Assembly: GCF_021155765.1 (NCBI RefSeq)
Contig: NC_060114.1
Coordinates: 21,930,501-21,994,500, forward strand
Source: Diprion similis
Taxonomy: Eukaryota > Arthropoda > Insecta > Hymenoptera > Diprionidae
Direction: 5' to 3'
Length of the DNA: 64,000 nucleotides
The first letter of the stretch is position 1; each line of letters opens with the position of its first letter. A program made the position numbers and the translations under genes. Below are positions 3,149-55,662 of this stretch, in pieces. A model generated the notes under the pieces. It had not been told where the DNA came from. It saw only the letters and a list, made by a program, of their open reading frames with translations, and made no database searches.

Positions 3149-4638
3149 ATGCTTTTTTGGAAAATAGATGTAACTAGTCTCGCATGCCTTACGCTTATTG
3201 CCTTTATGTTGAATTACGTCGACGGAACCGCGTCGCAAAATGAAGAGAGAGCAAAAACAAGCCAAGGTCGGGTCCGTCAAACCAAAGAACAATTGAAACA
3301 AACTAAGGAACAATTGAGAGCTGTCAAACTGCCACCATGTGCAGCATGCAGGGCTCTCGTCGAGTCTTTCACACATGTGAGTATACGTTCCTGCAGTTTT
3401 TTTCAAAATACACTAGCAAGAAAAAAAAACTGATAAACTTTTTTGACATTATTGTAGGGCATGCAAAAGACTGCTCGCGGAAAGTTTGAAGGTGGGGATA
3501 CGGCCTGGGAAGAAGAGAAGCTGCGATCGTATGCCAAAAGCGAAGTGCGGCTTGTAGAGATACAGGAAAATCTCTGTAAGGCAAACGACAGAGGGGCGGA
3601 TCAGTGTCATTTGCTAGCAGAAGAAACAGAGTCAGACGTTGAGGATTGGTGGTTCAACCACCAGGACTCGAAGGATCTGCATACCTACCTGTGCATTGAT
3701 TTGCTTCAGCACTGCTGTCCGGACAAGCATTTTGGCCCGGAATGCCTGCCATGCGAAGGGTATCCCGATAACATATGCAACAACAATGGAAAATGCAAGG
3801 GAGCTGGTACCAGAAAGGGAAACGGCCAGTGTACTTGCGACGAAGGCTACTTTGGGATCACGTGTGAACAATGCTTGCCTGGTTACTTTGAATCTTACAG
3901 AGACGAAGTCAAGTTCTTATGCACCAAATGCCATCCGGCATGCGATGGAAATTGCACCGAAGGAGGGCCCAAGGCTTGCCAGAAATGCAATCAAGGCTGG
4001 GAAATGATAGAGGGAAAGGGATGCATTGACGTCAACGAATGTCTTGTCAGTGGCAAAAAAGCTTGTGTTGGAAATAAATTCTGCGTGAACAAGGAGGGAT
4101 CATTTGATTGTTTAGGTAAAAATTAATGCAAAGAAATCAAACCGTTTGTAATTTCAACTTTTGAATTAAGTTTACGATGATGTCACTATTGTATTGAAAA
4201 ACCACTTCGATCCGCTTGCTTCCAGATTGTGATAAAGCCTGCGACGGTTGTACCGGCGACGGTCCTGATATGTGCATAAAGTGCATTGAGGGACACCGCA
4301 AAAAAGACAACATTTGCGTCGGTGAGTCAGATAAATTTCATAGGCAGTGGTTATGATTCTCTCTATCTGCAGTGTGAAAAAGAGTTTAATCGAACCAATG
4401 ACTGTCTGTTTCAGATTCTGATCTTTTAGGGCGAAAGAAGACAGAAAATATTGCTCGATACTCGACGTACTTTGGTCTCTGCCTAGCAACGTGCATAATA
4501 CTACAACGTAACGTTTATGCAGCCAGCTTGATTGGCTTACTAGTGGGGATTTATATATCTGTGTCCGAATACATGATCGCATTCAGTACAGTCCAAGACA
4601 CATCTGCGAATATGGATATTCTTGGTCCTGCAGTTTAG
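3149..4638 (+). CDS. Creld: CRELD family protein (cysteine-rich with EGF-like domains), Creld1-like with C-terminal membrane hairpin
   Basis: Four exons: 3149-3376, 3458-4115, 4226-4321 and 4415-4638 (phases 0, 1, 1), giving 401 aa; all introns are GT-AG. Residues 1-26 form a signal peptide. A CAAC motif (residues 64-67) and the GGDTAWEEE block (88-96), the CRELD hallmark, follow. Then come an EGF module (about 161-216), cysteine-rich furin-like repeats with two DxxCxGxC-type segments (about 230-260 and 296-327), and a calcium-binding EGF start, DVNEC (267-271). Two hydrophobic stretches near 345-358 and 361-377 form a membrane hairpin, which points to the Creld1 rather than the secreted Creld2 type. 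In animals CRELD proteins act in the ER, with links to disulfide exchange and receptor maturation; the role here is inferred from the family. Length is close to human CRELD1 (about 420 aa). The ATG at 3149 is chosen because it directly precedes the signal peptide. Confidence 0.93.
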
Positions 4639-5340
4639 AAATTATTAGAAAAAGGTTTATTATTTTAAAATTGAGTTTCAACGTCTTGAACATTGATGAA
4701 AACCTTCACTTATCCAGAATACCATAACTGTGGTAATTATTATTATTAATTATTCTCAAATGATAAACCTGGAGTTGTAACTTACATCTTGAATTTGCGA
4801 ATTTCAAATAATATGCAACCAACGAGGTCATTAATGTCAGTGTTTTAAGTGAACTATGCTCAAGTTTTATTGTAATTTATGCCACGTGATCTGTCACGAA
4901 CATTCCTTGTGTAAGAAACGCGTGCACCGTATGTACGGGTATAATAAGTAGGATAATTTTAAAAATGAGACCACAGCAGTTAGCTACTTTGCGTGACTTT
5001 GACTCCGCAAAATTTAACCGAGTAAGAAATAATATTTGAATATAAACATAAACGTGGATTGTCTAGTCTCTCGGTGTATAAATTATAACGAATGATTGAG
5101 AACTTTCAAGAATCAATGGGCTGTATTAATTTGCTGAAGCAAATATAGTGCAAATTTATGTAATATATACAAAATACAGAAATGTGTTTGATAGCAAACC
5201 CGAAACACTAATTTCCGTAATGAACTTCAGCCCTATCTGCACGGTGTAATGAGACAAGAAAAGGCTATCGGATTATCGTAAATATGGTCAGAGTGTTATA
5301 AGCATCTGATTTTTCTATTTCTTATTTGCTCGCATTTTGT
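4639..5340. other. 3' UTR and short intergenic spacer after Creld
   Basis: AT-rich sequence without a usable open frame. It should contain the Creld 3' UTR. I did not find a canonical AATAAA close to the stop, so the transcript end is not placed. Confidence 0.4.
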
Positions 5341-6046
5341 CAGGCCCATAGCGGTGTTTATAGAGATAGACTGCGCGCTCTGTGTACCGAGCTGAAGCCG
5401 TGATAAAACAGAGAGAACCACAACTGTGAGCATTTTCTCAGACTTTGATCGGTCACTTGGCGGGAGAAACACATAGACTTACACAAATATGCCTTATCGT
5501 TTTCCTTGCCTGGCGGATGCTCTCCACTCTTTTGATCGTACGACAGAGAGAGGACTCCTCCAGGACTAGCTTTGTCTTTTGGTCTCGGCTTCGGTGGCCC
5601 CGAAAAAGAATGACCAAAAGTAATCGATTATTTTTCAAACTCGATTATCTTTTCTCACAATCAGTTGTTCTTTTTTACTCCCATGAACGACGCAATACAA
5701 TATCAATTCATGTGATTAAAGTCTCAATTATTATCATCGTCTTACTTACCAAGTACCTATTTGACATAATAAGTGAAGATGAATAAAGATTTTCACTTGA
5801 AATTGAAAAATATTTTGAATGAAACTATAAATTATCAAAAAACTTTTTCGCTATTAAGATTGCATATTGAAATTTTGACAAAATACGATAAATCGATTAA
5901 TCGGTTAATTTTTACCAATTCAATTGAGTCGTGCTCGATAATTTTTTTGACTCGATTGCTCGATGCATCGATTATTTTTATCTTTGTGGCCATCGCTACC
6001 CCGTAAAACCGCGCAGTCTATCTCTATTAGTCTATGGTTGGGCCCT
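5341..6046. mobile_element. Non-autonomous DNA transposon candidate with terminal inverted repeats, about 706 bp
   Basis: The left end (from CAGGCCCATAG at 5341) and the reverse complement of the right end (ending CCCTG at 6046) share CAGG(G)CCCA and then an uninterrupted TAGAGATAGACTGCGCG block, at equal distance from the tips. The interior is rich in ATCGATTA-like motifs and has no transposase-like ORF, so it would be a MITE-sized, non-autonomous copy. CAG-type tips are common in hAT elements, but the 8 bases on each side do not match as a target-site duplication, so superfamily and exact borders are unsure. Confidence 0.55.
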
Positions 6047-31962: not shown

Positions 31963-32256
31963 TCATAACCTTTTGTCAAAACGACGAGTTCTAATTATTG
32001 CAGTGTTGTTACCGTGAACTTTCATCGTTGCAGCGGAAGGAGCATCGATTTCAGCAACTGCAATCTGTTCTTTATGCTTTTGATTGTTGCTCAGAAAGCC
32101 TTGTTTACTAATACTGGCTTTCGGGCGATAATCATAATCAGGGAAGAGCAGAGTTTCAACAAAACTGATATTACTAAATACGATATAAGTAACCATATGC
32201 ACCATAAAGTAGACCATTGTATTATTGTAGTTCCACACCAGCCGACCAATGCGCAT
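31963..32256 (-). CDS. Small ORF with signal-peptide-like start, unrecognised
   Basis: A 97-codon frame from ATG at 32256, with a second ATG at codon 14 (32217) that is followed directly by a hydrophobic run (YFMVHMVTYIVFSNISF), as in a secreted peptide precursor. The rest is polar and basic, ends in RRFDKRL, and has no cysteine pattern. It could be a short secreted peptide or chance in AT-rich DNA. No homologue is recognised. Confidence 0.18.
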   Translation of the reverse strand: MRIGRLVWNYNNTMVYFMVHMVTYIVFSNISFVETLLFPDYDYRPKASISKQGFLSNNQKHKEQIAVAEIDAPSAATMKVHGNNTAIIRTRRFDKRL

Positions 32257-43914: not shown

Positions 43915-44299
43915 TCTAACCTAGGATCACGAAATATCCGAGGTAGCGTCTTCCAGGAATCAGGATAGGTTAGGAATTCATTGTATCGTTTGAACTCTAC
44001 GAGACATTTCAAATCACCGGTTCATTTATACATTAGAAATAGTTATTGAAGACCCTTTCAGCATAGAGTTTAAATAATTTTTTGCAAAAATATCATTGCG
44101 TGTACAAACATCTTTCGCCACTGTACGGTCGTTGTTCACGGCATTCAGGCCGAAACACATAAACTTTGGAGGCATGAAGCGAATAGCAGATACTATATTC
44201 AGCCATGGCCTATACATACGTAACTATACACAGTCTATAATACACATGTGTCATGTAAGTGTGACTCGTCTGGCGCGTTAACAGTGCATGTAACAGTGT

Positions 44300-44515
44300 G
44301 GAGCAGTCACGTGATCAATCCGTGTGCGCCTGATCTGTGCACTGACCTCTACTATACACAGTAGTGATCAGTGGATCTGTGCCATGCGCATTGCTTTCCG
44401 TAACTGCGCGTGCGCGCTAAATCGCGCATGCGTACTGTATTGCGAACACGCACTAGCTTGTGTTCTAAAACACCACTTGAGTGTGCCCAGGATTGGGTTC
44501 CGAAATTTCGGAATG
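44300..44515. promoter_or_regulatory. Likely CACHD1 promoter-proximal region with E-box and NRF1-like sites
   Basis: About 400-600 bases upstream of the CACHD1 start codon lies a CpG-rich patch with TCACGTGA (44307-44314), two NRF1-like GCGCATGCG/GCGCGTGCGCGC sites (about 44405-44433) and a 16-base palindrome TTCCGAAATTTCGGAA (44498-44513). Motifs are seen directly; their use as a promoter is inferred from position. Confidence 0.35.
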
Positions 44516-44742
44516 GCATTGTAGGATTTCCCCATGGGCTTCAAACGAAGATTCCCTATCTGCAGCTGAACTTTAGTTACACGTTGAATTACTACTAACT
44601 TCAAGTAAAGAAGTGTTCTTCCGCTCTCCACTCGAGTTCTGCTCCGTGAGACACCACGCTGCAACCACGTTGACGTCTGTATAATTACGCCCTATATTTA
44701 CGCCTGAATAACACTTACTATAATCATGGCATGTGTGTATAG

Positions 44743-45180
44743 TAGGGTGGTTCATTTTAAATTTGTATTTTTTGTTTTCGCTTCTCGCCTGAAAACTCTC
44801 TGCCAGATTCAGAGGAATAAAAAATATTTATAAGTCGCTATCGAAGGTCAAGAAAGAAGAAAAATTTAATAATTGCTTTAAATGAGTCAATTACCATTTT
44901 AAGGGTAGTTCATTTGGAATAACTTATTTTTTTTTGTCTCCCACCTAACACAATGATGTCTAATGATCAGAATTAAATTCTCCTAAAAGACCAGGCTATA
45001 AACAACTTATTTGAAGGTCGCTACGGATGGTTAAATATCGGTAGGGATAAATTAATTTTCGTTATTTCTTATTTTTTATATAGAAATTAAATTTTATTTT
45101 TATCTCCCATCAGAGCAAGTGCTACAAAATACTTCAAAAAAGATTTTTGTGAAAGACGATACACAGAATATTTATACGTC
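44743..45180. repeat. Degenerate repeated segment beginning TAGGGTGGTTCATTT
   Basis: Related blocks start near 44743 (GGGTGGTTCATTT) and 44901 (GGGTAGTTCATTT), each followed by a T-rich run, CTCxCxCCT, an A-rich stretch and an AAGTCGCTA/AGGTCGCTAC-like segment. A third, more diverged block follows from about 45050. It looks like an old tandem or nested transposon remnant. Similar TAGGGTGGT starts occur at 6312 and, inverted, at 61207. Confidence 0.35.
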
Positions 45181-45325
45181 GTTACCAATTACTGAAATCT
45201 TTTTCATTTATTTTTATGCGTGCACCTTACAGATGTATATATACGTAAACGGCATTATTGACGAATAGTATTATTGAATAAAATATATCTTCATTTGTTG
45301 CAATTAGGAGCTGTGAGGTTTCATT

Positions 45326-45600
45326 TGAATAGCTGAAGGCTGGATTTTCACGGGTGTCAAATTGACGCGGCAGCGCCACGCCGTCAGCGGCGGAAAGACG
45401 ATCATGAAAATGGGTACCGATGCAACGGCAAAATGCCATCAGTCTGAGTTGTGTGGTTGAATAATTGATTTTCAGTTGCGTTTCTATCTGAGAATTTGTG
45501 AATCTAGGATTGATAAGAGGTGTGAACATAGGGAGAAAATGAAAAAGAGGAAGGAGACAAAAAATTTGGACTGGGTTTTCAAAAAGGTGATAGAGATAAA
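45326..45600 (+). repeat. Left arm of the inverted repeat that encloses the satellite array
   Basis: Matches the reverse complement of 54362-54634. The best part is about 90 bases at roughly 80% identity (from GGCTGGATTTTCACGGG through GCCACGCCGTCAGCGG to TCATGAAAATGGGTAC). Weaker similarity runs on for another 150 bases toward the array. Both arms read inward through ATGAAAATGGGTAC and then encode related basic segments (here RICESRIDK...EKMKKRKE). This arm has about 400 bases between its inner end and the array. Confidence 0.75.
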
Positions 45601-46029
45601 TCGCAAACTCATAGTTACAAAGTTCCAGTGCCAGGTTATGCAATGTGCCTTAGTTCTAGTACAAGTGTTCAGTGTCAGTGTATACTATTTTACCAATAAG
45701 TTTCCGAATAGTATATTTCTATGTCAACATACTATTTTATATTTCATTAAGTAGAATATGAGCAATCTTGTATGAGATAATTATCATTATAGTTTGTAAG
45801 CGCAGTTTGAGTTGTAGCCTAAGTGCAGTTGCAACGCACCTCTGCAGCGTACGAGATGTATAATACTGTATTGTTAATATTTGTTACTATTTTACGTAAC
45901 CTGAAATAAAATCAATATAACCCGAAAGAATCAATATTTTCTTCGTATCTTCTCGAGTAATGGTCCCACGTTGCTCATAATATATACCACGTTACATAAT
46001 AATACCTTTTCTGCACTACTTGGGCCCAA

Positions 46030-49000
46030 ATTGGTCTAGAAGCAGTGGTTTTCGATTGACCTCGAGACAAAAAGTTTTTGAGCTCTGAAAATCGCAAAAA
46101 GCCAGGCTAACCCCTTTGGATTTTTTCAGTCGAAATTTGGCTGATTTTGAAAAGTATCTAAAGTGACTTTGTAATGCACTATATCGACGTGATTTTTCGA
46201 GAGGAATCGACTGCGCACAGTCCGAATACGCTGCAAGCAACGTCTCAAGAGTTACGGCCAAAAAACCGAAAATTTTCTTTGTAATTCCTCTGCTGTTGGT
46301 CCCACGACTTTTTTGATGTCTTTTTCGCATTCCTGAGGGTCCAATTAGTCGAAAAAGGGTCCTGCAGAACGATTCCCAGACGAAAAGTTTTTGAGCTCTG
46401 AAAATCGCAAAAAAGCCAGGCTAACCCCTTTGGATTTTTTCAGTCGAAATTTGGCTGATTTTGAAAAGTATCTAAAGTGACTTTGTAATGCACTATATCG
46501 ACGTAATTTTTCGAGAGGAATCGACTGCGCACAGTCCGAATACGCTGCAAGCAACGTCTCAAGAGTTACGGCCAAAAAACCGAAAATTTTCTTTGTAATT
46601 CCTCTGCTGTTGGTCCCACGACTTTTTTGATGTCTTTTTCGCATTCCTGAGGGTCCAATTAGTCGGAAAAGGGTCCTGCAGAACGATTCCCAGACGAAAA
46701 GTTTTTGAGCTCTGAAAATCGCAAAAAAGCCAGGCTAACCCCTTTGGATTTTTTCAGTCGAAATTTGGCTGATTTTGAAAAGTATCTAAAGTGACTTTGT
46801 AATGCACTATATCGACGTAATTTTTCGAGAGGAATCGACTGCGCACAGTCCGAATACGCTGCAGGCAACGTCTCAAGAGTTACGGCCAAAAAACCGAAAA
46901 TTTTCTTTGTAATTCCTCTGCTGTTGGTCCCACGACTTTTTTGATGTCTTTTTCGCATTCCTGAGGGTCCAATTAGTCGGAAAAGGGTCCTGCAGAACGA
47001 TTCCCAGACGAAAAGTTTTTGAGCTCTGAAAATCGCAAAAAAGCCAGGCTAACCCCTTTGGATTTTTTCAGTCGAAATTTGGCTGATTTTGAAAAGTATC
47101 TAAAGTGACTTTGTAATGCACTATATCGACGTAATTTTTCGAGAGGAATCGACTGCGCACAGTCCGAATACGCTGCGAGCAACGTCTCAAGAGTTACGGC
47201 CAAAAAACCGAAAATTTTCTTTGTAATTCCTCTGCTGTTGGTCCCACGATTTTTTTGATGTCTTTTTCGCATTCCTGAGGGTCCAATTGGTCGGAAAAGG
47301 GTCCTGCAGAACGATTCCCGGACAAAAAGTTTTTGAGCTCTGAAAATCGCAAAATAGCCAGGCTAACCCCTTTGGATTTTTTCAGTCGAAATTTTGCTGA
47401 TTTTGAAAAGTATCTAAAGTGACTTTGTAATGCACTATATCGACGTAATTTTTCGAGAGGAATCGACTGCGCACAGTCCGAATACGCTGCGAGCAACGTC
47501 TCAAGAGTTACGGCCAAAAAACCGAAAATTTTCTTTGTAATTCCCCTGCTGTTGGTCCCACGACTTTTTTGATGTCTTTTCCGCATTCCTGAGGGTCCAA
47601 TTAGTCGGAAAAGGGTCCTGCAGAACGATTCCCAGACGAAAAGTTTTTGAGCTCTGAAAATCGCAAAAAAGCCAGGCTAACCCCTTTGGATTTTTTCAGT
47701 CGAAATTTGGCTGATTTTGAAAAGTATCTAGAGTGACTTTGTGATGCACTATATCGACGTAATTTTCCGAGAGGAATCGATTGCGCACAGTCGGAATACG
47801 CTGCGAGCAACGTATCAAGAGTTACGGCCAAAAAACCGAAAATTTTCTTTGTAATTCCTCTGCTGTTGGTCCCACGACTTTTTTGATGTCTTTTTCGCAT
47901 TCCTGAGGGTCCAATTAGTCGGAAAAGGGTCCTGCAGAACGATTCCCAGACGAAAAGTTTTTGAGCTCTGAAAATCGCAAAAAAGCCAGGCTAACCCCTT
48001 TGGATTTTTTCAGTCGAAATTTGGCTGATTTTGAAAAGTATCTAAAGTGACTTTGTAATGCACTATATCGACGTAATTTTTCGAGAGGAATCGACTGCGC
48101 ACAGTCCGAATACGCTGCGAGCAACGTATCAAGAGTTACGGCCAAAAAACCGAAAATTTTCTTTGTAATTCCTCTGCTGTTGGTCTCACGACTTTTTTGA
48201 TGTCTTTTTCGCATTCCCGAAGGTCCAATTAGTCGGAAAAGGGTCCTGCAGAACGATTCCCAGACGAAAAGTTTTTGAGCTCTGAAAATCGCAAAAAAGC
48301 CAGGCTAACCCCTTTGGATTTTTTCAGTCGAAATTTGGCTGATTTTGAAAAGTATCTAAAGTGACTTTGTAATGCACTATATCGACGTAATTTTTCGAGA
48401 GGAATCGACTGCGCACAGTCCGAATACGCTGCGAGCAACGTATCAAGAGTTACGGCCAAAAAACCGAAAATTTTCTTTGTAATTCCTCTGCTGTTGGTCT
48501 CACGACTTTTTTGATGTCTTTTTCGCATTCCCGAAGGTCCAATTAGTCGGAAAAGGGTCCTGCAGAACGATTCCCAGACGAAAAGTTTTTGAGCTCTGAA
48601 AATCGCAAAAAAGCCAGGCTAACCCCTTTGGATTTTTTCAGTCGAAATTTGGCTGATTTTGAAAAGTATCTAAAGTGACTTTGTAATGCACTATATCGAC
48701 GTAATTTTTCGAGAGGAATCGACTGCGCACAGTCCGAATACGCTGCGAGCAACGTCTCAAGAGTTACGGCCAAAAAATCGAAAATTTTCTTTGTAATTCC
48801 TCTGCTGTTGGTCCCACGACATCTTTGATGTCTTTTTCGCATTCCTGAGGGTCCAAATAGTCGGAAAAGGGTCCTGCAGAACGATTCCTAGACGAAAAGT
48901 TTTTGAGCTCTGAAAATCGCAAAAAAGCCAGGCTAACCCCTTTGGATTTTTTCAGTCGAAATTTGGCTGATTTTGAAAAGTATCTAAAGTGACTTTGTAA

Positions 49001-52000
49001 TGCACTATATCGACGTAATTTTTCGAGAGGAATCGACTGCGCACAGTCCGAATACGCTGCGAGCAACGTCTCAAGAGTTACGGCCAAAAAACCGAAAATT
49101 TTCTTTGTAATTCCTCTGCTGTTGGTCCCACGATTTTTTTGATGTCTTTTTCGCATTCCTGAGGGTCCAATTGGTCGGAAAAGGGTCCTGCAGAACGATT
49201 CCCGGACGAAAAGTTTTTGAGCTCTGAAAATCGCAAAATAGCCAGGCTAACCCCTTTGGATTTTTTCAGTCGAAATTTTGCTGATTTTGAAAAGTATCTA
49301 AAGTGACTTTGTAATGCACTATATCGACGTAATTTTTCGAGAGGAATCGACTGCGCACAGTCCGAATACGCTGCGAGCAACGTCTCAAGAGTTACGGCCA
49401 AAAAACCGAAAATTTTCTTTGTAATTCCTCTGCTGTTGGTCCCACGACTTTTTTGATGTCTTTTCCGCATTCCTGAGGGTCCAATTAGTCGGAAAAGGGT
49501 CCTGCAGAACGATTCCCAGACGAAAAGTTTTTGAGCTCTGAAAATCGCAAAAAAGCCAGGCTAACCCCTTTGGATTTTTTCAGTCGAAATTTGGCTGATT
49601 TTGAAAAGTATCTAGAGTGACTTTGTGATGCACTATATCGACGTAATTTTCCGAGAGGAATCGATTGCGCACAGTCGGAATACGCTGCGAGCAACGTATC
49701 AAGAGTTACGGCCAAAAAACCGAAAATTTTCTTTGTAATTCCTCTGCTGTTGGTCCCACGACTTTTTTGATGTCTTTTTCGCATTCCTGAGGGTCCAATT
49801 AGTCGGAAAAGGGTCCTGCAGAACGATTCCCAGACGAAAAGTTTTTGAGCTCTGAAAATCGCAAAAAAGCCAGGCTAACCCCTTTGGATTTTTTCAGTCG
49901 AAATTTGGCTGATTTTGAAAAGTATCTAAAGTGACTTTGTAATGCACTATATCGACGTAATTTTTCGAGAGGAATCGACTGCGCACAGTCCGAATACGCT
50001 GCAAGCAACGTCTCAAGAGTTACGGCCAAAAAACCGAAAATTTTCTTTGTAATTCCTCTGCTGTTGGTCCCACGACTTTTTTGATGTCTTTTTCGCATTC
50101 CTGAGGGTCCAATTAGTCGGAAAAGGGTCCTGCAGAACGATTCCCAGACGAAAAGTTTTTGAGCTCTGAAAATCGCAAAAAAGCCAGGCTAACCCCTTTG
50201 GATTTTTTCAGTCGAAATTTGGCTGATTTTGAAAAGTATCTAAAGTGACTTTGTAATGCACTATATCGACGTAATTTTTCGAGAGGAATCGACTGCGCAC
50301 AGTCCGAATACGCTGCGAGCAACGTCTCGAGAGTTACGGCCAAAAAACCGAAAATTTTCTTTGTAATTCCTCTGCTGTTGGTCCCACGACTTTTTTGATG
50401 TCTTTTTCGCATTCCTGAGGGTCCAAATAGTCGGAAAAGGGTCCTGCAGAACGATTCCTAGACGAAAAGTTTTTGAGCTCTGAAAATCGCAAAAAAGCCA
50501 GGCTAACCCCTTTGGATTTTTTCAGTCGAAATTTGGCTGATTTTGAAAAGTATCTAAAGTGACTTTGTAATGCACTATATCGACGTAATTTTTCGAGAGG
50601 AATCGACTGCGTACAGTCCGAATACGCTGCAAGCAACGTCTCAAGAGTTACGGCCAAAAAACCGAAAATTTTCTTTGTAATTCCTCTGCTGTTGGTCCCA
50701 CGACTTTTTTGATGTCTTTTCCGCATTCCTGAGGGTCCAATTAGTCGGAAAAGGGTCCTGCAGAACGATTCCCAGACGAAAAGTTTTTGAGCTCTGAAAA
50801 TCGCAAAAAAGCCAGGCTAACCCCTTTGGATTTTTTCAGTCGAACTTTGGCTGATTTTGAAAAGTATCTAAAGTGACTTTGTAATGCACTATATCGACGT
50901 AATTTTTCGAGAGGAATCGACTGCGCACAGTCCGAATACGCTGCAAGCAACGTCTCAAGAGTTACGGCCAAAAAACCGAAAATTTTCTTTGTAATTCCTC
51001 TGCTGTTGGTCCCACGACTTTTTTGATGTCTTTTTCGCATTCCTGAGGGTCCAATTAGTCGGAAAAGGGTCCTGCAGAACGATTCCCAGACGAAAAGTTT
51101 TTGAGCTCTGAAAATCGCAAAAAAGCCAGGCTAACCCCTTTGGATTTTTTCAGTCGAAATTTGGCTGATTTTGAAAAGTATCTAAAGTGACTTTGTAATG
51201 CACTATATCGACGTGATTTTTCGAGAGGAATCGACTGCGCACAGTCCGAATACGCTGCAAGCAACGTCTCAAGAGTTACGGCCAAAAAACCGAAAATTTT
51301 CTTTGTAATTCCTCTGCTGTTGGTCCCACGACTTTTTTGATGTCTTGCTCGCATTCCTGAGGGTCCAATTAGTCGAAAAAGGGTCCTGCAGAACGATTCC
51401 CAGACGAAAAGTTTTTGAGCTCTGAAAATCGCAAAAAAGCTAGGCTAACCCCTTTGGATTTTTTCAGTCGAAATTTGGCTGATTTTGAAAAGTATCCAAA
51501 GTGACTTTGTAATGCACTATATCGACGTAATTTTTCGAGAGGAATCGACTGCGCACAGTCCGAATACGCTGCAAGCAACGTCTCAAGAGTTACGGCCAAA
51601 AAACCGAAAATTTTCTTTGTAATTCCTCTGCTGTTGGTCCCACGACTTTTTTGATGTCTTTTTCGCATTCCTGAGGGTCCAATTAGTCGGAAAAGGGTCC
51701 TGCAGAACGATTCCCAGACGAAAAGTTTTTGAGCTCTGAAAATCGCAAAAAAGCCAGGCTAACCCCTTTGGATTTTTTCAGTCGAAATTTGGCTGATTTT
51801 GAAAAGTATCTAAAGTGACTTTGTGATGCACTATATCGACGTAATTTTTCGAGAGGAATCGACTGCGCACAGTCCGAATACGCTGCGAGCAACGTCTCGA
51901 GAGTTACGGCCAAAAAACCGAAAATTTTCTTTGTAATTCCTCTGCTGTTGGTCCCACGACTTTTTTGATGTCTTTTTCGCATTCCTGAGGGTCCAAATAG

Positions 52001-54395
52001 TCGGAAAAGGGTCCTGCAGAACGATTCCTAGACGAAAAGTTTTTGAGCTCTGAAAATCGCAAAAAAGCCAGGCTAACCCCTTTGGATTTTTTCAGTCGAA
52101 ATTTGGCTGATTTTGAAAAGTATCTAAAGTGACTTTGTAATGCACTATATCGACGTAATTTTTCGAGAGGAATCGACTGCGTACAGTCCGAATACGCTGC
52201 AAGCAACGTCTCAAGAGTTACGGCCAAAAAACCGAAAATTTTCTTTGTAATTCCTCTGCTGTTGGTCCCACGACTTTTTTGATGTCTTTTCCGCATTCCT
52301 GAGGGTCCAATTAGTCGGAAAAGGGTCCTGCAGAACGATTCCCAGACGAAAAGTTTTTGAGCTCTGAAAATCGCAAAAAAGCCAGGCTAACCCCTTTGGA
52401 TTTTTTCAGTCGAACTTTGGCTGATTTTGAAAAGTATCTAAAGTGACTTTGTAATGCACTATATCGACGTAATTTTTCGAGAGGAATCGACTGCGCACAG
52501 TCCGAATACGCTGCAAGCAACGTCTCAAGAGTTACGGCCAAAAAACCGAAAATTTTCTTTGTAATTCCTCTGCTGTTGGTCCCACGACTTTTTTGATGTC
52601 TTTTTCGCATTCCTGAGGGTCCAATTAGTCGGAAAAGGGTCCTGCAGAACGATTCCCAGACGAAAAGTTTTTGAGCTCTGAAAATCGCAAAAAAGCCAGG
52701 CTAACCCCTTTGGATTTTTTCAGTCGAAATTTGGCTGATTTTGAAAAGTATCCAAAGTGACTTTGTAATGCACTATATCGACGTAATTTTTCGAGAGGAA
52801 TCGACTGCGCACAGTCCGAATACGCTGCAAGCAACGTCTCAAGAGTTACGGCCAAAAAACCGAAAATTTTCTTTGTAATTCCTCTGCTGTTGGTCCCACG
52901 ACTTTTTTGATGTCTTTTTCGCATTCCTGAGGGTCCAATTAGTCGGAAAAGGGTCCTGCAGAACGATTCCCAGACGAAAAGTTTTTGAGCTCTGAAAATC
53001 GCAAAAAAGCCAGGCTAACCCCTTTGGATTTTTTCAGTCGAAATTTGGCTGATTTTGAAAAGTATCTAAAGTGACTTTGTAATGCACTATATCGACGTAA
53101 TTTTTCGAGAGGAATCGACTGCGCACAGTCCGAATACGCTGCAAGCAACGTCTCAAGAGTTACGGCCAAAAAACCGAAAATTTTCTTTGTAATTCCTCTG
53201 CTGTTGGTCCCACGACTTTTTTGATGTCTTTTTCGCATTCCTGAGGGTCCAATTAGTCGGAAAAGGGTCCTGCAGAACGATTCCCGGACGAAAAGTTTTT
53301 GAGCTCTGAAAATCGCAAAATAGCCAGGCTAACCCCTTTGGATTTTTTCAGTCGAAATTTGGCTGATTTTGAAAAGTATCTAAAGTGACTTTGTAATGCA
53401 CTATATCGACGTAATTTTTCGAGAGGACTCGACTGCGCACAGTCCGAATACGCTGCGAGCAACGTCTCAAGAGTTACGGCCAAAAAATCGAAAATTTTCT
53501 TTGTAATTCCTCTGCTGTTGGTCCCACGACATCTTTGATGTCTTTTTCGCATTCCTGAGGGTCCAAATAGTCGGAAAAGGGTCCTGCAGAACGATTCCTA
53601 GACGAAAAGTTTTTGAGCTCTGAAAATCGCAAAAAAGCCAGGCTAACCCCTTTGGATTTTTTCAGTCGAAATTTGGCTGATTTTGAAAAGTATCTAAAGT
53701 GACTTTGTGATGCACTATATCGACGTAATTTTTCGAGAGGAATCGACTGCGCACAGTCCGAATACGCTGCGAGCAACGTCTCGAGAGTTACGGCCAAAAA
53801 ACCGAAAATTTTCTTTGTAATTCCTCTGCTGTTGGTCCCACGACTTTTTTGATGTCTTTTCCGCATTCCTGAGGGTCCAATTAGTCGGAAAAGGGTCCTG
53901 CAGAACGATTCCCAGACGAAAAGTTTTTGAGCTCTGAAAATCGCAAAAAAGCCAGGCTAACCCCTTTGGATTTTTTCAGTCGAAATTTGGCTGATTTTGA
54001 AAAGTATCTAAAGTGACTTTGTAATGCACTATATCGACGTAATTTTTCGAGAGGAATCGACTGCGCACAGTCCGAATACGCTGCGAGCAACGTCTCAAGA
54101 GTTACGGCCAAAAAACCGAAAATTTTCTTTGTAATTCCTCTGCTGTTGGTCCCACGACTTCTTTGATGTTTTTTCCGCATTCCTGAGGGTCCAATTAGTC
54201 GGAAAAGGGTCCTGCAGAACGATTCCCGGACGAAAAGTTTTTGAGCTCTGAAAATCGCAAAAAAGCCAGGCTAACCCCTTTGGATTTTTTCAGTCGAAAT
54301 TTGGCTGATTTTGAAAAGTATCTAAAGTGACTTTGTGATGCACTATATCGACGTAATTTACCGAGAGGAATCGATTTCGCACAGTCTGAATACGC
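46030..54395 (-). repeat. Satellite array, about 26.6 head-to-tail copies of a 314 bp monomer
   Basis: The monomer repeats with an exact 314-base spacing: 26 equivalent ATGs (minus strand) fall at 46330, 46644 and so on to 54180. All copies have the same orientation and near-identical sequence; the outermost copies are diverged, and weak similarity to the monomer reaches left to about 45960. Each full monomer contains a 99-codon minus-strand frame starting MRKRHQKSRGTNSRG, then a TAA stop and a 14-base gap to the next ATG. Because 314 is not divisible by 3, the frames do not join. Shared variants show higher-order structure (offsets of 1570 and 1884 bp). No CENP-B-like box was recognised. The ORF may be a by-product of homogenisation; it is not annotated as a gene. 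Confidence 0.98.
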
Positions 54396-54634
54396 CATCA
54401 GCTACTTCATCTCGTTTCTTTATCTTCTCTATTCCTTGACGCTTCCAATTAACAATCTGAGATTCTTCAATTCTTAGGATCGAAATGTAATTGACATCCA
54501 TCAACCTAACCATGTGAGTTTTGACGTACGACATTACACCGTTTCGTTGTACCCATTTTCATGAGCGACCTCTCCCGCCGATGGCGTGGCATTGCCGAGT
54601 CAATATGACGCCTGTGGAAATCCAGCCTCACGTA
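54362..54634 (-). repeat. Right arm of the inverted repeat that encloses the satellite array
   Basis: Reverse-complement partner of 45326-45600. In this arm the homologous sequence runs directly into the last, partial monomer (ending near 54395) with no spacer. The translated inner part (minus strand, RIEESQIVNW, then EKIKKRDEV and GVFRLCEID) resembles the left arm at protein level, which suggests both arms come from one coding or transposon sequence. Confidence 0.72.
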
Positions 54635-55533
54635 ATCATGAGTAAGAAGACAGTGCACTTCTTTCGAATTATATCATTGATTCACCGTAACTTTCAAACC
54701 ATAGCTGCCTGGACTAGATTCTAGGACTTTTCAAAATCAACAACGACATTCTTAGAGAAATCCAGAGCAGTCGACTATAATTTTTATTGCCGCATCTGGA
54801 GGGGCTGAAAGGTGCATAGCTGAGATAGTCTGTGCAATTCTGAAAAAGTGGGTCCGTAAAATGAGCCATACTGAGATGGTTTCATGCAATATTGAGGTGA
54901 TTAGACGAGAATCAGGAATTTCAATAATTAAGTAAATAAGAAATGGCCCCACAAACAGCGCGGTGCGGAGAACGCGTCAACAACTATATAAGGGTGCATT
55001 CCGAAATTACCTAGCAACGCTAAAAATTCCCTAGTTCCGGCCGTAAAGCAGGAAGACAGAGAAGGAAAGAGTAACATGAGTACCTCTCTCTTTCTAAGCC
55101 AGGAGCGTAGCGTGGTAAATTTAGTGCCTGCGTCGATGATACGCACCTAATTAAAATTTTGTATGACATTTTGAAGAGTAGATGTTGCCTTCGTTATAGC
55201 ATATATTATGTACGATAATTACGTACATTATTATCATAGTTTATCGTATACAATATGTTATGTATATTTCAATATAATATATAATAAAATATTACATTAT
55301 ATTTACACTCAAGAAGTCAGGACAATTGTTACATAAAAGGATAATCCTTGTTTGAAAGAAAACTTGCTTTAGGAATTTGTTATTTGGATTGAATTTTTGG
55401 GATTTTGGATTTGAAGAAATTATTGATGTGCTAATGCATTAATTCTGACAATAAATTGATGGTTTTATTCATACAATTGCACTTTGACCATAGTTTATTA
55501 AACAGTACACTTAATTTATTACCTTACTTTACT

Positions 55534-55662
55534 TATCTTGACACTAACTAAGTACTTAGAATAATCATATCATCGGCACTCATGTTTAAACTTACGTTAC
55601 TTATATCTTGACACTAACTAAGCACTTAGAATAATTATATTATCAGTATTTATGTTTAAACA
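55534..55662. repeat. Tandem dimer with 70 bp period
   Basis: TATCTTGACACTAACTAAG occurs at 55534 and again at 55604. Similarity continues through CACTTAGAATAAT and ATGTTTAAAC in both copies, so a unit of about 60-70 bases is present twice with some substitutions. Confidence 0.8.

Follow-up and report, generated by a model that had tools for sequence, protein, structure and literature searches.

How a satellite array of several kilobases comes to be enclosed by two inverted copies of one flanking sequence is the question raised by a locus of the sawfly Diprion similis. The window, that is the whole analysed stretch of 64,000 nucleotides (C10:21930501-21994500), holds such an arrangement, which the original prediction interpreted as a foldback-type or large transposon with an interior expanded into a satellite. 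The genomic searches described below were carried out in one assembly of 269 Mb in 60 contigs.

The array and its inverted arms

The copy in the window (W) consists of the following features, from left to right.

45338..45556, plus strand: left arm, a terminal inverted repeat (TIR) starting with GGCTGGATTTTCACGGGTGTCAAATTGACGCG (end common to the genomic copies; alignment to the right arm)
45560..45917, plus strand: non-satellite insert (same segment in L032, L041, L046, L049, L054, L055 and L058)
45922..46046, plus strand: degenerate first monomer piece, model positions 177-279 (nhmmer)
46065..54405, plus strand: about 26.5 tandem copies of the 314-bp monomer; 25 monomers compared pairwise are on average 98.1% identical (TRF, nhmmer)
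54380..54405, plus strand: right junction, where the last monomer ends at model position 160 (break point recurs at other right ends)
54402..54627, minus strand: right arm, a TIR (genome search, alignment to the left arm, copy alignment)

By TRF, the array extends from 46065 to 54395 with a period of 314, 26.5 copies and 98% matches. Units five and six positions apart show slightly higher identities (98.36 and 98.41%) than the overall mean of 98.07%, which may reflect block duplication. Open frames of 129-160 aa within the array arise from the 314-bp period, which is not a multiple of three, and were set aside as proteins.

The best local alignment of the arms pairs positions 45337-45556 with the reverse complement of 54628-54402 at a score of 80; the scores of 500 dinucleotide shuffles averaged 13.0 (sd 2.2) and reached 24 at most. 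The two arms are therefore homologous inverted sequences, as had been proposed; they are 69% identical over 241 columns (E 2e-25) and 83% identical over the outer 54 nt. Mapping of the arm limits and of the target site, suggested at the same time, gave a divided result. The homology ends sharply at GGCTGG (45338 and 54627), in the window as well as in the aligned copies, and the flanks beyond are unrelated; a matching 3-bp target duplication is missing from the window pair, which reads GAA on one side and TCA on the other. The left TIR adjoins the insert directly in the window, and several hundred bases of other sequence lie at this place in L041.

Open frames surround the array. Minus-strand frames at 39.6-43.9 kb, one of them with a sensor-domain match below the cut-off, lie on one side and an ATP-grasp-domain frame at 58 kb on the other, and no phage match was obtained for positions 44000-46400. 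About 0.9 kb beyond the right arm, TRF reports a 70-bp repeat in two tandem copies (55523-55661). The window further contains a precursor of mir-315 (32068-32148, 74.4 bits), to our knowledge an arthropod-specific microRNA.

A dispersed family with shared ends

Used as queries against the genome, the two arms returned at least 33 and at least 41 matches, spread over many chromosomes. The sharp family end, GGCTGGATTTTCACGGGCGT, has 86 genomic matches (20 nt, up to three mismatches) compared to 3 for the reversed control. The aligned copies, a few of them with degraded ends, start at GGCTGGATTTTCACGGGCGTCAAATTGACGCG and have unrelated outer flanks; their TIRs are about 220-250 bp long, those of the window about 220 bp. 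Some of the 86 end matches belong to sister families that share just the outer 20-40 nt or so, such as L084, L085 and the palindromic L083. The latter (C8:12816650-12816860, positions 59-151) is a nearly palindromic element of 93 bp that shares the outer end motif and is flanked by TTA on either side. From this element and from other ends that read GGCTGGATTTTCACGGGCAG, it follows that several sister families have about 18 terminal bases in common.

Ends that face each other at a distance of up to 50 kb were taken as candidate pairs, not all of which were read through. There are 15 of them, with spans of 0.26 to about 48.5 kb.

Candidate pairs: W, C3:5.53-5.57, C3:5.74-5.76, C3:6.65, C3:15.68, C4:19.92, C4:21.67, C4:22.52
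Further candidate pairs: C4:23.68, C4:26.79, C8:25.57, C12:4.46-4.51, C2:4.09, C6:18.30, C11:7.02

Eleven of the 15 pairs contain monomer sequence. It was not seen in C2:4.09, C4:19.92 and C11:7.02, nor at the ends of C4:23.68, the parts of that pair that were read. An initial test of 12 pairs for exact target duplications of 1-10 bp singled out a length of 3 bp (5/12, p 0.004, a value that has to allow for the ten lengths tried); no other length in this range showed an excess, and at 8, 9 and 10 bp none of the 12 pairs matched. In the enlarged set, exact 3-bp duplications (TTA, TTA, TAA, TAT, AAA, AAA, AAA) are present in 7 of 14 pairs, with a permutation mean of 1.9 and a p of 0.0004; this set includes the sister-family palindrome L083, which is one of the matches and was added together with C11:7.02 after the first test, and leaves out C3:5.74-5.76 and C4:22.52-22.53, each with one degraded end.

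Proteins of the family's own were sought in several ways. When about 5 kb of L048, of L053 and of L051 were scanned against Pfam in all six frames, no domain appeared up to E 0.1, and the single sub-cutoff match in L065:960-2830 (TMEM62_C, E 0.008) was taken as chance. The genome holds 93 listed DDE_Tnp_4 (PIF/Harbinger-type) matches, many in long stop-free open frames, the closest of which is located 134 kb from any of the 86 end matches. The arms themselves had been thought to read into similar basic peptide segments, a suggestion that did not survive comparison: read from ATGAAAATGG onward, each window arm gives 18 aa and the two peptides agree only in MKMGT, and the peptides from 25 arms range from 4 to 67 aa. 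In 13 of the 25, a few further codons near TDATAKC are shared before the peptides stop or diverge at varied points. Such agreement can be explained by a conserved DNA end and does not require coding, and coding arms were rejected.

With sharp shared TIR ends, 3-bp duplications in half of the pairs tested and no transposase in the copies scanned (L048, L053, L051), the family is MITE-like, and the arms are the terminal inverted repeats of a dispersed and apparently non-autonomous DNA-transposon family. PIF/Harbinger elements are characterized by 3-bp AT-rich target duplications, typically TWA, and by ends starting with G. The family resembles them in its 3-bp AT-rich duplications and in ends that begin with G, and differs in that no such transposase lies within 134 kb of the 86 ends, among the 93 matches listed; three of the seven matching duplications (TTA, TTA, TAA) fit TWA, while TAT and the three AAA do not.

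The family is not uniform in its interior. A type of about 6 kb (L048, L053, L051/L052, L057) and the 2.9-kb L056 have the same TIRs and a monomer piece of about 120-215 bp at the right end, which accompany a long non-satellite interior that is about 70-87% alike among the copy matches listed. Inside the 6-kb type, L053 contains another tandem repeat, about 290 bp long and present in about three copies (reversed coordinates 4556-5490 of E053r), and given this second repeat the element family seems prone to tandem growth.

Several copies hold an extra copy of a motif of about 16 nt within the TIR, and some show inverted subterminal blocks indicative of modular rearrangement. Together with inverted ends and a satellite interior, these traits are reminiscent of a true foldback element of the Tetris/FB type, the arms of which are themselves built of tandem repeats. 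That the family is of this kind is nevertheless very improbable, and for the window copy it is already contradicted. The TIRs of the family are short, the window arms are free of tandem repeats by TRF, the window array forms a single interior block in a single orientation, and the target duplications measure 3 bp, as opposed to the 8-10 bp given for Tetris. With terminal inverted repeats free of tandem repeats, the foldback label of the original prediction becomes unnecessary.

Monomers inside the arms, from one unit to tens of kilobases

If the arms are the ends of one element, the monomer should lie on their inner side. This was scored for 29 arms in loci read around arm matches, within a reach of 1.5 kb and with arm queries that hold almost no monomer. 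The inner sequence was long enough for scoring in 28 arms, and 22 of them have monomer there; of the 24 arms that could be scored on the outer side, 1 has it. The inner-side misses are both ends of the 0.78-kb L050, the left ends of L048 and L056, L051, and L045, which was scored as a miss although its array starts further in. The expectation that the arms repeatedly flank arrays was thereby borne out.

The junctions recur as well. At 10 of 37 termini, including that of the window, the monomer stops at model position 146-160 and is followed by 181-262 bp up to the terminus. Three other termini stop earlier, at 66-117, L043, L044 and L072 differ, and the 21 others include many left ends and pieces not long enough to contain the junction. 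An array picked by its monomer, L078, displays the same right junction (model end 150) and an arm that had been missed in the genome search. On the left side, the junction falls at position 159-164 of the window-consensus unit in five of nine left ends (L065, L039, L042, L041, L047); the other four (L040, L044, L045, L054) start away from this common position. Junctions common to many copies make it possible to tie an array to one insertion.

These data bear directly on the possibility that an unrelated transposon inserted twice, independently, on either side of an ordinary satellite. The low identity between the two window arms and the lack of a target duplication at the window copy are what such a history would leave behind. 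Monomers confined almost entirely to the inner side of the arms and 3-bp flanks common to half of the pairs speak against it, and a monomer-arm junction at the same unit position in ten termini contradicts it, which makes two separate insertions the least credible of the explanations considered.

The copies cover a wide range of unit numbers. L065 (C3:15680822-15683742) spans 2.9 kb and has both ends and exactly one unit, which opens with GAATACGGTGCGAGTAACGT and closes with GAATACCTTGTCAGCAACTT, 312 bp apart. These flanking 20-mers are identical at 14 of 20 positions, the adjoining 20 bases on either side match at 4 and 3, and none of 8600 shuffled 20-mer pairs at the same spacing reached 14 matches. 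About 1.86 kb of extra sequence (735-2593), probably a nested insertion, separates two blocks that lie almost side by side in L041; without it, L065 would measure about 1.06 kb. In a tree of monomers, its unit sits on a deep, poorly supported branch close to the base of one clade. L065 may represent either the founder form or a contracted array.

At the other extreme, the C12:4.46-4.51 pair has a span of 48.5 kb and is flanked by TTA at either end. All three samples of 351 bases from its interior are monomer and are 96.9-97.7% identical to units near its own left end, compared to 88-89% for L039 and 79-81% for the window; the two units read near its right end (L032) are just 83-88% identical to the mid-array samples. 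The single interior sample of the 40.2-kb C3:5.53-5.57 pair is likewise monomer, 96.6% identical to the units of its own left end. From these four sampled points, we infer that the whole interior of both pairs is array. The unit thus occurs as a single copy inside an element (L065) and in arrays (W, L054/L055, C12:4.46).

Monomers group mostly by locus. W, L041, L043, L044, L045, L047, L049 and L058 form one cluster each in a tree built from at most six monomers per locus, and so does L040 but for one unit. Intermixing is seen between L054 and L055, the two ends of one element, and between L039 and L046, which are 0.2 Mb apart; the flank loci on C10 scatter, and some edge units fall outside the cluster of their locus. 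Of the 17 loci represented by two or more units, 9 have a mean internal identity of 93-100% and the other 8 one of 66-91%; between loci, mean identity ranges from 64 to 94%.

Armless arrays and the origin of the satellite

Not every array has arms. Seven arrays were sampled by monomer similarity, of which one (C8:26.48) has an arm on its right side. No arm was found up to E 1 on either side of C10:19.25, C10:17.54 and C10:14.36 or on the one side read of C2:17.70, C3:3.75 and C10:20.35. The original prediction had named widespread arrays without arms as an observation that would speak against it; on the sides read, six of the seven sampled arrays are of this sort, and the seventh is armed. The armless arrays may have lost their ends, may have been moved by recombination or may belong to a satellite older than the element. 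Among the matches listed, relatives of the window unit are found first on C10 and those of the L044 unit on C1, C2, C3, C4, C8, C10, C11, C12 and C13.

The insert next to the left arm of the window (45560-45917) is likewise widespread, with matches on eight chromosomes. It interrupts the monomer in L058, where the model stops at 192 and resumes at 190 after the insert, adjoins or sits within monomers in further copies, and is also carried by some of the armless arrays. At C10:19.558-19.583 Mb, the insert recurs at spacings of 2165, 2479 and 2793 bp. As these correspond to 5, 6 and 7 units of 314 plus 595 bp, this stretch is a higher-order repeat.

The explanation that we consider very probable is an old insertion of a MITE-like TIR transposon without recognisable gene, of which an internal unit was amplified into an array after the element had spread. 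The ancestral element would probably have been about 1 kb in length. Between its two TIRs it would have contained, from left to right, a short unique stretch and a single 314-bp unit with a direct repeat of about 20 bp at its borders. It would have spread by cut-and-paste with 3-bp target duplications, presumably by means of a transposase borrowed from another element. The internal unit would have been amplified in place later, at many insertion sites; the likeliest route is unequal exchange or slippage, at first between the direct repeats and subsequently between units. Local homogenisation would account for the clustering by locus that is observed in the tree, and armless arrays could be what remains once the ends of old copies have decayed or an array has moved away. 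Directly observed in the genome are the shared ends, the candidate pairs in inverted orientation, the junctions common to several copies, a one-unit copy and locus-specific arrays. The view of the locus as a transposon with an interior grown into a satellite is upheld by the position of the monomer inside the arms, the 3-bp duplications and the one-unit copy.

A rather doubtful but related alternative is that the satellite came first, and that about 1.07 units of an already existing 314-bp satellite were picked up by an inverted-repeat element, which dispersed them, with re-expansion thereafter. It differs from the amplification of an internal unit set out above only in the origin of the unit, and our confidence in the one overlaps with that in the other. 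A captured piece of 1.07 units would resemble L065, monomers occur on many chromosomes, armless arrays are common, and a review reports the same proposal for miDNA4 (PMC12628747). In the tree, on the other hand, neither the intermixing of monomers from armed and armless arrays nor the deep, weakly supported branch of the L065 unit favours an older free satellite.

On the favoured explanation, amplification of a unit internal to the element, several known systems offer parallels. Tc1/mariner elements use TA as target site. The family differs from one of their MITEs, miDNA4 of Xenopus tropicalis, in its 3-bp duplications, its end sequence and its 314-bp unit. As described in reviews, miDNA4 is similar in being a non-autonomous inverted-repeat element with a satellite unit that is present as a monomer or as an array of variable length; its unit is flanked by short direct repeats, and its free arrays are explained by end decay (PMC12628747, PMC9659126). 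Its direct repeats are given there as AT-rich and 5 bp or more in length, those of the present family being about 20 bp and diverged. Tetris of Drosophila virilis, with its TIR-220 repeats, is likewise described as an inverted-repeat element without protein, in which an internal tandem repeat gives rise to satellite arrays of kilobase size and copies are rearranged in a modular fashion (PMC4079207); according to the same paper the repeats sit in long TIRs and the duplications are 8-10 bp, in contrast to the interior array of the window and the 3-bp duplications of its family. Xstir of Xenopus, as described in PMC12628747, combines a MITE, a tandem array and composite forms, with repeats derived from the MITE interior; the likeness lies in this organisation, and host and proposed mechanism differ. 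The principle of satellites born in MITE-like elements is hence already known from miDNA4, Xstir and Tetris, and the window provides a further example. A description of the 314-bp unit was not found among the titles and abstract openings listed in literature searches, including one on satellite DNA in Hymenoptera; the suggestion of the original prediction that the family may be undescribed is a guess.

There is good support for the view that the satellite array of the window lies in a non-autonomous inverted-repeat transposon that has since decayed. A transposon origin would explain the presence of a satellite among genes, here between the frames at 40-44 kb and 58 kb. The beginnings of satellites are seldom visible because arrays erase their own history; in this case, one assembled genome has a one-unit copy, intermediate arrays and pairs of about 40 and 48 kb. 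A more far-reaching idea, which we put forward tentatively and with some reservation, is that transposition of a one-unit element gave rise to the whole 314-bp satellite family of the genome, with an independent birth of every armed array at its own insertion site. If this were true, a single genome would span the entire course from one unit through tens and perhaps 150 units to free arrays without ends.
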